Positions 12,634-16,219 of a stretch of DNA of 42,802 nt are shown one piece after another; positions within the stretch are counted from its first letter, which is position 1; each line of letters begins with the position of its first letter. The notes below the pieces were generated by a model, which worked only from the letters and a program-made list of their open reading frames with translations, was not told where the DNA came from and did no database searches. Location of the stretch: NCBI GenBank assembly GCA_943358095.1, contig CALRGT010000001.1, positions 146,842-189,643 on the forward strand, written 5' to 3'. Source of the DNA: an uncultured Candidatus Saccharimonas sp. (GTDB lineage Bacteria; Patescibacteriota; Saccharimonadia; Saccharimonadales; AQU-01). Both the position numbers and the translations under genes were made by a program.

Positions 12634-12662
12634 ATTGTACCTTTGCTTATGTTAATTATCAA
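12634..12662 (-). promoter_or_regulatory. promoter of the response regulator gene (leaderless)
   Basis: Minus strand: -35 TTGATA (12657-12662), 17-bp spacer, -10 TACAAT (12634-12639), then 6 nt to the ATG. The -35 overlaps the pyrG stop codon. Confidence 0.75.
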
Positions 12663-14266
12663 TCTTTACGGTCTTTACAGGCTACTATAAAACCGGCAAA
12701 CATTGGATGCTGCCGATTAGGCCTAGACAAAAATTCTGGATGAAATTGACTCGCTAAGAAAAACGGATGATCTGTTCCTTCTATCATTTCAACAAGTCGA
12801 CCATCAGGCGAATTACCAACCGCTCTAATTCCCCAGGACTCGTACTGGTCTATATAGTCGTTACTGCATTCGTAGCGGTGACGATGTCGTTCTATGATAT
12901 TTGTAGTGCCGTAAAGTTTCGCTGCCAAACTTCCCTTCTCGATAATACAAGGATAATTACCTAGTCGCATAGTGCCACCAGTGTTTTCCTTACCTTCTTG
13001 ACCTGACATAGTATTAATAAGCAGCTCTTTGCCTTTAGGGTCCATTTCGGCAGAAGTCGCGTCTTTTAATCCTGCATTTCTTGCTGCAGCCACAACAGCC
13101 ATTTGTAATCCTAGACACAGGCCTAAGTATGGAAGTTTTTGGTTTAACGCAAACTGAGCGGACTTTATCTTGCCTTCTAAGCCTCGACTACCAAAACCGC
13201 CTGGCACAACTATACCGTCAATATTAGTAAAGGCCTTCTTGATATCTTTGTCGTTCTTGAGTTTTTCAGAATCGATCCAGCGTATCTTAAGGTCAACATC
13301 ATTCCATAATGCTGCTGAACGCAATGCCTCAAATACAGACATATATGTGTCGGTATTGTCCATATACTTGGCGACAACTCCGACTGTAACTTTATGTTTG
13401 TGATTACTAGTGGCTCTTTTGACCACTGCTCGCCAAGTTTTTAGATCTGGTTTTTTGGCTTTTAGGTCCAATTTGTCACAAATAACATCAGCAATACCGG
13501 TATCTTCTAGAGTTAATGGCACCTCGTAAATAGAGGAAGCATTTGGTAATAAGGCTATGGCATCCTCGGCGACACCACAGAACAGACTTAGCTTTGTTTT
13601 AACGCCATTGTTAGCCTTTTTCTCACTTCTACCAACCAAGATGTCTGGGGCAATTCCTAGGCCTCGTAATTCTCGTACAGAGTTTTGAGCTGGCTTGGTT
13701 TTTGTTTCTTGGCTTGCTCCTAAGAATGGTAGGTAGACAACATGAACATAAAGACAATTATCGCGTCCAACATTAATTCCCATTTCGCGGATAGCCTCAA
13801 TAAAACTAAGTGATTCATAGTCGCCTACTGTGCCGCCAATTTCAATAATATGAACATCAAAGCCTTTGCCTGCTTCCATTATGTATTTTTGGATTGCACC
13901 TGTTAGATGCGGAATAATCTGGACATCTTCACCGTCATACTTACCAGCGCGTTCGTCTTGGATAACCTGAAGCAGAACTCGTCCACTCATCAAGCTACTT
14001 GACGAAGTTAGCTCTTGATCCAAAAATCTTTCATAGTGACCAAGGTCGAGGTCGGTTTCTGCGCCATCTTTAGTCACAAAACATTCGCCGTGTTCACGCG
14101 GGTTTAATAGTCCGGCGTCAACATTCAAGTAAGGGTCGCACTTCTGGATATTTACATTGAGGCCACGGGCCTTTAAGAGATTGCCGATTGAGGCGGCTGT
14201 TATGCCCTTTCCTAATCCGGAAAGCACACCACCAGTAACAAAAATATACTTAGTAGGTCTGGACAC
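12659..14266 (-). CDS. pyrG: CTP synthase
   Basis: Makes CTP from UTP using ATP and glutamine-derived ammonia. The N-terminal synthetase domain begins KYIFVTGGVLSGLGKGITAA, the family signature and P-loop. The C-terminal class I glutamine amidotransferase domain has the Cys nucleophile in PYLGLCLGLQMAVVA and the His/Glu pair in SQFHPEFLSRP. The 535 residues are complete. It starts at GTG (14264-14266), with GAGGGG about 12 nt upstream. A TTGCCA/TAGTAT promoter with an 18-bp spacer gives a leader of about 31 nt. Confidence 0.97.
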   Translation of the reverse strand: MSRPTKYIFVTGGVLSGLGKGITAASIGNLLKARGLNVNIQKCDPYLNVDAGLLNPREHGECFVTKDGAETDLDLGHYERFLDQELTSSSSLMSGRVLLQVIQDERAGKYDGEDVQIIPHLTGAIQKYIMEAGKGFDVHIIEIGGTVGDYESLSFIEAIREMGINVGRDNCLYVHVVYLPFLGASQETKTKPAQNSVRELRGLGIAPDILVGRSEKKANNGVKTKLSLFCGVAEDAIALLPNASSIYEVPLTLEDTGIADVICDKLDLKAKKPDLKTWRAVVKRATSNHKHKVTVGVVAKYMDNTDTYMSVFEALRSAALWNDVDLKIRWIDSEKLKNDKDIKKAFTNIDGIVVPGGFGSRGLEGKIKSAQFALNQKLPYLGLCLGLQMAVVAAARNAGLKDATSAEMDPKGKELLINTMSGQEGKENTGGTMRLGNYPCIIEKGSLAAKLYGTTNIIERHRHRYECSNDYIDQYESWGIRAVGNSPDGRLVEMIEGTDHPFFLASQFHPEFLSRPNRQHPMFAGFIVACKDRKD

Positions 14267-14304
14267 CTGTTACACTACCCCTCTTTTCGAACTTTACTTA
14301 ATAG

Positions 14305-14334
14305 ATACTACCTTACATTCTATGCTTATGGCAA
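14305..14334 (-). promoter_or_regulatory. putative pyrG promoter
   Basis: Minus strand: -35 TTGCCA (14329-14334), 18-bp spacer, -10 TAGTAT (14305-14310). The expected leader is about 31 nt and contains GAGGGG. Confidence 0.45.
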
Positions 14335-14434
14335 GTGTAGAATTTGCAACTCTGCAATCTGGCTGGCTGGATAGGACTTAACTTTTATTACTCTTTTGCA
14401 TAAGATTTTAGTACGTCATAGCGGACTACTTTAT

Positions 14435-14632
14435 GCCACTTTTGGGTCGCCAAAAGATGGCGCAAAAACGAGGGGCGATGGCGCCAACTCGATATAGCTT
14501 CCGAACAAGGAGCACAACACAGCCTGTGGAACTAGCTGCTTCGCAGCGTCAGACAGTCCTCGGCAGGTAGTGTTGTTGTGCTCTTGTCGGAATCTATTTC
14601 GGGTAGTCGCCAAGCCCCAACTAAGCCCATGG
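14435..14632 (-). other. structured element, left copy (candidate ncRNA or repeat unit)
   Basis: Read on the minus strand, this element runs from CCATGGGCTT to a hairpin at its outer end. It can fold as one long extended hairpin. GGGGC near the start pairs with GCCCC near the end (14471-14476 region), followed by TCGTTTTT. A middle stem pairs GAGCACAACA with TGTTGTGCTC (plus-strand arms 14510-14519 and 14574-14583). The apical part holds two conserved words (14547-14564 and 14522-14535) flanking a GCTGC/GCAGC hairpin. The outer end has GCCACTTTTGG/CCAAAAGaTGGC. The short reading frame inside is an artefact. Confidence 0.6.
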
Positions 14633-14690
14633 AATGATTGCTAAAGACAATCATTGATAATTTTAAATATTGCCCGCCTCCAGCGGGCGA
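14633..14690. other. spacer between the two inverted copies, with two small hairpins
   Basis: Holds AATGATTG/CAATCATT (14633-14640 / 14648-14655, 7-nt loop), then an AT-rich stretch (14657-14671), then GCCCGC/GCGGGC (14672-14677 / 14683-14688, 5-nt loop). The AT-rich part could carry divergent -10 elements for the flanking copies, but no strong promoter is seen. Confidence 0.5.
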
Positions 14691-14899
14691 CCATGGGCTT
14701 GGGTGGGGCTTGGCTGCTTCCTGATACGAGTCTCGTCAAACTGACGACTATCAGCCGAGGATTGTTTGACGGCCCGCCCTCCCAAAATAATAGAGCGGGC
14801 CTAGTTCCGCAGGCAGTTGTCAGGCTTGACCCTGGGACTGTATCAAGAAGTAGACATCGCCCCTCGGTTTTGTGTTACTTTTGCCGAAACAAAAGTAAC
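14691..14899 (+). other. structured element, right copy (candidate ncRNA or repeat unit)
   Basis: Plus-strand homologue of the left copy. It starts CCATGGGCTTGGGTGGGGCT, has GCCGAGGATTGTTTGACG (14754-14771), a variable GC-rich hairpin GGCCCGC/GCGGGCC (14771-14777 / 14795-14801), then CTAGTTCCGCAGGC (14801-14814) and CATCGCCCCTCG followed by a T4 run (14855-14871). It ends with a perfect 10-bp hairpin GTTACTTTTG/CAAAAGTAAC (14874-14899). The variable hairpin differs in sequence from that of the left copy but keeps its pairing, which supports a structured RNA. Confidence 0.6.
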
Positions 14900-14959
14900 G
14901 GTAAGCTATTGTCCGAGACAAAAGTGGCAGAAGCAGATCGCTTTAGCGAATCAAAAACC

Positions 14960-16219
14960 CTATTTCTTGAGTTGAGTTAATGCGAAGTCGAGCTGAGGAT
15001 CATTACCTGATTTATAGTCTTCATCAGAGCGTTTAATTTCAGTATCTGGGCTAATGCCCTCCTTATCGATATTTTTGCCCGCTGGAGTATACCACCTAGC
15101 GATAGTCACCTTCAGGAAGCTATCATTATTGTAGCGAACAATCTGCTGAACGCTACCCTTACCAAAGCTCTTAACTCCAACCAACTTAGCAGCATTATTG
15201 TCACGCAAGGCTCCTGCTGTAATTTCGCTTGCTGACGCACTTCCGGCATCTATCAAAACAATTGTAGGTATGTTTTTGAGTGTAGGCTCGCCCCTTGAAC
15301 TATAAGTTCTTATTACGACTCCATCACGTCTTTCTGTTAAAACAGTCTTGTTCTCCAACCATAGGCTAGAAACAGAAACTGCAGCATCCAGCAATCCACC
15401 TGGATCACCTCTTACGTCAAGGACTATTCCCTTAACATTATCTGACTTGAATTTGTCAGCAGCCTTTCTAGTAAGTTCAACAGTGTCCTCAGAAAATCGA
15501 GCAATCTTGATATAGCCAACATTGCCGTCTAGCGTTTTTGAAGTCACGCTTGGAATAGTTATCTCGTCTCGCACTATTTCTATAGTTAGGTCTTGTTTGC
15601 CGTCACGAATAATTCTCAACTTTACAGTGGTACCTTTTTCGCCCCTAATCTTACTGACTGCATCAGATATTGATAAATCATAGGCTGATTTGCCATCGAT
15701 TTCTGCAATAACATCTTTTGGACGTAACCCTGCTTTGTCGGCTGGAAACCCAGAAATTGGCGATACAACAATAATTGCATTAGTGGTAGTATCTTTGCTA
15801 AGTTCAGCTCCAATACCCGTAAATGAGCCTGTAAGTTGCTCATTAAATTCTTTGGCCTCTTTAGGATTGAAGTACTGTGTATATGGGTCGCCGGCTGACT
15901 TAGCCAAGCCTTCTTTTAACCCATCCATTAATTTGGCAGCATCTAATTTACCGTCAAAATTTTGTCGCAAGCTATCATAAATCATCTCGACTTCAGTGTA
16001 GTCTAGATTATTTGGAGACCCTTTGCTTACAGGCTTCTTAAATATGGCATCACGACCGATAGTTATCTTGCCCTGACCGACCGATAAACCTAGCCAAAAA
16101 ATAGCCACTACAACGACTATCATTTTGGTCACTCGGCCACCACTAAAACGCTTTTCTTTTTCATCCGTATGACTAGCAGGTATTTTAAGTAAAGCGATGA
16201 TTAATTCCCTCCAACACAT
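14960..16219 (-). CDS. ctpA: S41 family C-terminal processing protease (CtpA-like)
   Basis: Periplasmic/extracytoplasmic Ser-Lys protease that trims the C-termini of envelope proteins. It has one N-terminal membrane anchor (about 33-48, MIVVVVAIFWLGLSVG) and a helical N-domain with GDPYTQYFNPKEA. The PDZ domain covers about 130-215 (GFPADKAGLRPKDVIAEIDG). The catalytic core has DVRGDPGGLL (about 268), DAGSASASEITAGAL (Ser about 327-331) and SFGKGSVQ with the Lys (K354). It lies downstream of the CHAP hydrolase gene in the ftsEX cluster, so it may process cell-wall enzymes (inference). The N-terminal start is uncertain, and a GGAGGG lies just inside this ATG. Confidence 0.92.
   Translation of the reverse strand: MCWRELIIALLKIPASHTDEKEKRFSGGRVTKMIVVVVAIFWLGLSVGQGKITIGRDAIFKKPVSKGSPNNLDYTEVEMIYDSLRQNFDGKLDAAKLMDGLKEGLAKSAGDPYTQYFNPKEAKEFNEQLTGSFTGIGAELSKDTTTNAIIVVSPISGFPADKAGLRPKDVIAEIDGKSAYDLSISDAVSKIRGEKGTTVKLRIIRDGKQDLTIEIVRDEITIPSVTSKTLDGNVGYIKIARFSEDTVELTRKAADKFKSDNVKGIVLDVRGDPGGLLDAAVSVSSLWLENKTVLTERRDGVVIRTYSSRGEPTLKNIPTIVLIDAGSASASEITAGALRDNNAAKLVGVKSFGKGSVQQIVRYNNDSFLKVTIARWYTPAGKNIDKEGISPDTEIKRSDEDYKSGNDPQLDFALTQLKK

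Follow-up and report, generated by a model that had tools for sequence, protein, structure and literature searches.

The closest described systems are of three kinds. REP sequences and their composites (BIMEs, REPINs), which go with the RAYT transposase (TnpA-REP), are non-autonomous, intergenic palindromes with arms of 20-40 nt and a GTAG/CGTC tag, frequently found as inverted pairs and serving as targets of IS110-type elements. Mobile insertion cassettes and MITEs have inverted ends that are empty or enclose passenger genes, with no transposase gene between them. The attC sites of integron gene cassettes are imperfect hairpins with a variable tip, probably recognised as single strands, that lie in direct orientation and accompany small orphan and anti-phage genes; IS1111-type elements are known to insert in attC sites. 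Here we analyse a stretch of 42,802 nucleotides (the window) from an uncultured Candidatus Saccharimonas sp., in which positions 14434-14929 are likely to represent an empty unit, that is, two ends and no cargo, of a non-autonomous mobile element recognised by its structure.

Results

The element occupies the intergenic gap 14267-14959, the only one longer than 250 bp in the window when a spurious 108-aa ORF inside the element is disregarded; a sequence-only reading of this DNA had described it as the only large gene-free gap. Inspection of the translations identified the neighbours as a CTP-synthase gene (12659-14266, minus strand) and an S41-peptidase gene (14960-16219, minus strand). Two diverged arms lie tail to tail, with 65% identity over 216 alignment columns (E=8e-16), and inverted pairs were found at 14599-14632/14691-14724, 14463-14497/14838-14872 and 14431-14449/14914-14932. 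Thus, both the coordinates and the anatomy first proposed, an inverted pair of diverged copies, hold: the conserved block said to match at 22 of 24 positions corresponds to 14609-14632 versus 14691-14714, the 11-bp end recurs identically in both arms of the alignment, and the folds display in each copy the predicted rod with its GGGGC/GCCCC closing stem. An end hairpin, this rod with its tip core, and an inner CCATGG make up each arm. Folded as single-stranded DNA, the whole element gives z=-14.6; the arms alone, folded as RNA, give z=-7.6 and -4.2. The features are as follows.

14434-14632, plus strand: left arm (type A), a structured end with its 5' end outward; aligns to the right arm and has A-type single-arm copies, 80-90% identical, at C3:32042, C1:113634 and C3:34594 of the same genome
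14434-14461, plus strand: left-arm end hairpin TGCCACTTTTG...CAAAAGATGGC, seen in the fold; begins every A copy and occurs solo at C3:33723-33752
14472-14618, plus strand: left rod closed by GGGGC/GCCCC (fold, z=-7.6)
14524-14562, plus strand: tip of the left rod with its conserved core, CTGTGGAACT-hairpin-CAGACAGTCCTCG, which differs by one base from the cross-phylum core CTGCGGAACT...CARACAGTCCTCG
14627-14696, no strand: middle segment between the two CCATGG, matching the twin at C2:36277-36772 (63/70 positions) only if inverted
14672-14688, no strand: inner (3') hairpin GCCCGCCTCCAGCGGGC, which terminates single-arm copies and occurs solo at C3:32847-32881
14691-14929, minus strand: right arm (type B), in reverse orientation, from the inverted-pair search and alignment; type-B copies at C2:36277-36772 and, alone and with an additional hairpin insertion, at C1:77837-78158
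14705-14863, minus strand: right rod closed by GGGGC/GCCCC (fold, z=-4.2)
14756-14812, minus strand: tip of the right rod with its conserved core, CTGCGGAACT-hairpin-CAAACAATCCTCG, from the sequence compared with the cross-phylum core
14874-14899, minus strand: right-arm end hairpin GTTACTTTTG...CAAAAGTAAC, seen in the fold
14919-14929, minus strand: 11-bp terminal inverted repeat TGCCACTTTTG, identical to 14434-14444 in arm A

The same genome contains a full twin of the element (C2:36277-36772, 88% identity) and at least four single-arm copies at unrelated intergenic places, and therefore the element is a dispersed repeat and no unique non-coding RNA. Two readings had been offered from the letters, a mobile repeat, to be recognised by many dispersed copies with shared ends, and an RNA family present as one divergent pair. 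The former is upheld by these full and single-arm copies, by their shared 11-bp ends and by presence and absence at orthologous sites elsewhere (see below), whereas the copy number and dispersal exclude a one-locus RNA gene; the element is both structured and mobile. Window and twin are collinear in their left (92% identical) and right (94%) arms and inverted in the 70-bp middle segment. Hence, A and B represent different types of end that stay paired, and the CCATGG spacer has flipped in one of the two copies; between 14627-14696 and the twin the spacer appears as if able to flip. Elsewhere in this genome, at C3:32042-34794 (L028:4043-6795), two inverted A-type arms surround a 2.3-kb segment encoding a heliorhodopsin (PF18761, 2.6e-81), a GNAT acetyltransferase and an FtsK-gamma/zinc-ribbon protein.

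A shared tip, CTGCGGAACT-variable hairpin-CARACAGTCCTCG, which caps a stem, came to light through weak DNA matches in other Saccharibacteria. Scanning GTDB genomes for exact copies of this tip returned at least 120 matches in about ten phyla, where about 0.5 were expected by chance; among the matches listed, record titles name beta- and gammaproteobacteria, Nitrospira, Lachnospiraceae, Coriobacteriia, Bacteroidia, Myxococcota, Spirochaetes, Gastranaerophilales, Chloroflexi and several Patescibacteria. This reach of the family across phyla lay beyond what the window alone could show. Two tip matches were present in IMG/VR, and the whole tip had no full match in PLSDB plasmids, INPHARED phages or E. 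coli, a limited test in which the query was one common loop variant. The distribution is patchy between genomes, with 11 carriers among 61 genomes of the Dechloromonas family and the strict core in 4 of 287 genomes of a Patescibacteria-level sample (zero control matches in both cases). No earlier description of the core or of such repeats was found in a search of the open-access journal literature. The rods are also read as spurious proteins (…VTFF…KKVTKEKA…RLRNS…QSSP…), at L086:2903-3241 and similar places, without any Pfam or NCBIfam match.

Covariation was measured on 50 distinct copies from the GTDB scan, at five stem pairs beside the core; as the search itself required an unchanged core, the invariance of the latter is no evidence. 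All five pairs carry double changes (79 cells against 29.7 +/- 4.5 in shuffled sets), and the covariation score was 0.684 against 0.206 +/- 0.032 shuffled, with slid controls reaching at most 0.28. An independent measure gave 0.86, 0.86 and 0.78 for paired positions and about 0.45 for permuted ones. The stem structure is under selection, and the covariation analysis suggested at the outset yielded a strong signal. The apical hairpin behaves as had been described for the two arms, changing its bases and keeping its pairing (GCTGC/GCAGC, GATGC/GCATC and GTCC/GGAC among copies), and in some Dechloromonas copies the flanks of the tip are swapped for other complementary sequence (e.g., TTCGCAT...ATGCGAA), with GAACTC and TCAAACA remaining. 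A K-turn reading of the core was dropped after inspection showed Saccharibacterial copies without the required G.A pairs.

Once the core is taken out, 34 of 41 copies fold better on the strand bearing CGAGGACTGTYTGA...GAGTTCCGCAG, by a mean of 5.4 kcal/mol (p=4e-5), and on the other strand A.C mismatches exceed G.T ones (34 vs 17, p=0.02). This preference suggests that one of the strands is the functional one, in the form of RNA or of single-stranded DNA; it could instead reflect a mutational bias. The asymmetry was not seen in the small G107/G120 set, arm A of the window favours the opposite strand, and a replication-strand bias was not significant (p=0.08).

Strong covariation, a strand that folds better as RNA with an excess of G.U-type pairs, and the frequent position of copies between convergent genes would all suit a multi-copy structured non-coding RNA family (or a 3'-UTR/terminator-like RNA), in which RNA function keeps the structure and dispersal is secondary. 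We consider this explanation unlikely, since the copies follow no gene-orientation rule (tandem settings, 27 vs 26), are patchily present within a genus and within a family, and show a paired A/B layout and a bracketing of cargo that RNA function leaves unexplained. Moreover, the window copy has no promoter excess, and the T-run that had been read after its closing stem was not borne out, no terminator-like T-run site being detected in the element. In agreement with the absence of tmRNA or other known-RNA signatures noticed at first, a tRNA/tmRNA search was empty and Rfam gave no match at gathering score for the window and 19 other loci, nor any credible one at E<1, where two eukaryotic chance matches appeared. 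A cis-regulatory role was rejected on the same lack of orientation towards neighbouring genes (27 vs 26).

Neighbouring copies less than 1.5 kb apart are arranged 3'-to-3' in 17 of 19 cases (p=6e-9), at distances of about 150-300 bp (empty) or about 0.9-5 kb (with cargo). Seven units of about 520 bp each occur in Dechloromonas hankyongensis; G103 has about 24 near-identical single rods of about 100 bp with sharp borders; and each of five units in G120 encloses 1-5 kb of cargo, encoding small proteins without known function, between one A-type and one B-type end, an asymmetry that the window shares. At the four orthologous intergenic sites tested, the unit is missing in congeners of D. hankyongensis. 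Mobility is thus well supported, chiefly by units that are present or absent within one genus and by near-identical copies at scattered places. The data show a structured repeat in many dispersed copies, patchy between genomes and mostly in tail-to-tail pairs, which brackets cargo in some genomes; that it is a dispersed, structured repeat that moves is, in our judgement, very probable.

Terminal inverted repeats, in empty and cargo-bearing forms like those of mobile insertion cassettes, would also be expected if an ordinary DDE or serine transposon, its autonomous version being lost or not recognised as such, had left MITE-like relics. This origin seems improbable to us: what is conserved is the rod tip, some 100 nt inward of the end, and not the outermost bases; the core is common to phyla whereas the ends differ; and the cargo genes included no transposase, except for an IS110 inserted into rods. 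A related autonomous transposon was not seen in the loci read. Target-site duplication was not visible by eye in 23 G103 copies, and at the empty sites it is unreadable because the intergenic flanks are too diverged to align at the junction.

Among 18 bracketed units compared (12 from the scan, five in G120 and one in the genome of the window), five contain PADLOC-listed genes, known or candidate anti-phage genes, at E<1e-18, namely PDC-S67, PDC-S33 (RelA/SpoT-like), bSEFIR (TIR/SEFIR), a BstA-like KilA-N and PDC-S31/DUF2971, the PDC families being candidates only. Just outside the cores, 1 of 80 genes is so listed at that threshold (Fisher p=0.0007, for a comparison chosen after seeing the data). 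The enrichment holds only between bracketing rods, as genes beside all cores in general are ordinary and showed none, and the bracketing itself could partly be due to chance insertion near variable genes. At L167:2949-6867, a TIR/SEFIR gene lies between two rods, each interrupted at the same site by an IS110/IS1111-type insertion sequence; the two insertions point in opposite directions, and one rod is partly masked.

As for the enzyme that moves the repeat, none was found among RAYT/Y1, reverse transcriptase, IS110 and integron integrase in the carriers; the first three were rejected as general mobilisers because each is missing from most carrier genomes. Palindromic, intergenic copies in inverted pairs, and one Y1/RAYT-like gene in the genome of the window, recall REPIN/BIME-like families, which depend for their movement on a REP-associated tyrosine transposase (RAYT, Y1 HUH). 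Nevertheless, such mobilisation is very improbable: the Y1/RAYT domain (PF01797) is present in only two of 11 carriers, with no Y1 domain at E<0.01 in the other rod-bearing genomes (G046, G100, G103, G120, G126, G142, G143, G153 and G406) and no RAYT in the betaproteobacterial ones among them, and RAYT (NF047646) had no match in seven of the 11 carriers of the Dechloromonas family. The genome's own RAYT-like Y1 transposase (C2:97586-97813; L032:1309-1926) has another palindrome, CCAAGGTGAGACCTTGG, on its flanks, one that bears no relation to the rods. A bacterial SINE, retro-copied in trans through a reverse transcriptase, would likewise be structured, non-coding and free of target duplication, and is still harder to credit given that RVT_1 is absent from nine of the ten carriers tested. 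The IS110 recombinase is absent from 10 of 11 carriers, and the IS110 of L167 sits inserted in rods at one fixed site.

An integron integrase above the curated cut-off was detected in five of 11 carriers, counted in carriers only, which are five of the seven betaproteobacterial ones (G103, G107, G120, G126 and G153), and in none of the four Saccharibacteria-class carriers, D. hankyongensis or G142; it constitutes a lead in the betaproteobacterial carriers. Host recombinases of XerC/D type are present everywhere, so their role cannot be judged by presence.

Discussion

Our findings favour the interpretation of 14434-14929 as an empty unit of a non-autonomous element, and the paired rods in general are probably the ends of such units. 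Each end would be an arm of about 200-240 nt, in which a short terminal hairpin is followed by a long rod, with the core CTGCGGAACT-variable hairpin-CARACAGTCCTCG at its tip, and by an inner hairpin. We hypothesize that a recombinase encoded elsewhere recognises the folded arm by its core, probably as one exposed DNA strand, and moves either a single arm or a pair of arms plus whatever is between; recognition of one folded strand is, on the strand preference described above, about an even proposition. The core would be the part that the protein reads, and the arms would be free to drift as long as pairing is kept. Single arms are numerous among the copies, so what moves may not be the paired unit.

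More tentatively, these repeats may form a widespread, uncatalogued class of long-rod ends, read through a core shared from Saccharibacteria to Proteobacteria and moved by a putative phylum-spanning enzyme, alone or as inverted cassette ends with anti-phage or accessory genes. If so, chromosomal mobile repeats of a large class, sharing a cross-phylum core, absent from Rfam and with no known enzyme, would offer a DNA handle for finding that enzyme and an alternative route for shuttling defence genes in genomes. The dispersed palindromes of Saccharibacteria, whose reduced genomes contain few transposases, would then be accounted for as well.

Compared with known systems, the repeat has the compact covarying structure of Rfam RNA families and matches none at gathering score; it differs from IS110 bridge-RNA elements and from retroelements, the respective enzymes being found in only one of 11 and one of 10 carriers. 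It resembles integron attC sites in its imperfect hairpin with a variable tip, in being probably recognised as a single strand, in its cargo of small orphan and anti-phage genes, in an IS110-family insertion at one fixed site and, in five of seven betaproteobacterial carriers, in the presence of an integrase; in contrast, its cargo lies between inverted sites, and the integrase is lacking in Saccharibacteria carriers, D. hankyongensis and G142. Like mobile insertion cassettes and MITEs, it has inverted ends that are empty or hold passenger genes and no transposase gene between them, but these ends are long folded rods with a cross-phylum core, without a known parent transposon or a readable target duplication. 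Like REP, BIME and REPIN sequences, it is palindromic, intergenic, non-autonomous, frequently paired in inverse orientation (17/19) and a target of IS110-type elements; on the other hand, its arms measure 100-240 nt, a conserved tip replaces the GTAG/CGTC tag, most carriers have no Y1 transposase, and the RAYT of its own genome is not flanked by rods. The element works like both REPINs and mobile insertion cassettes, but it departs from the former in their defining feature, and neither the parent transposon nor the target duplication of the latter was seen in the loci read.
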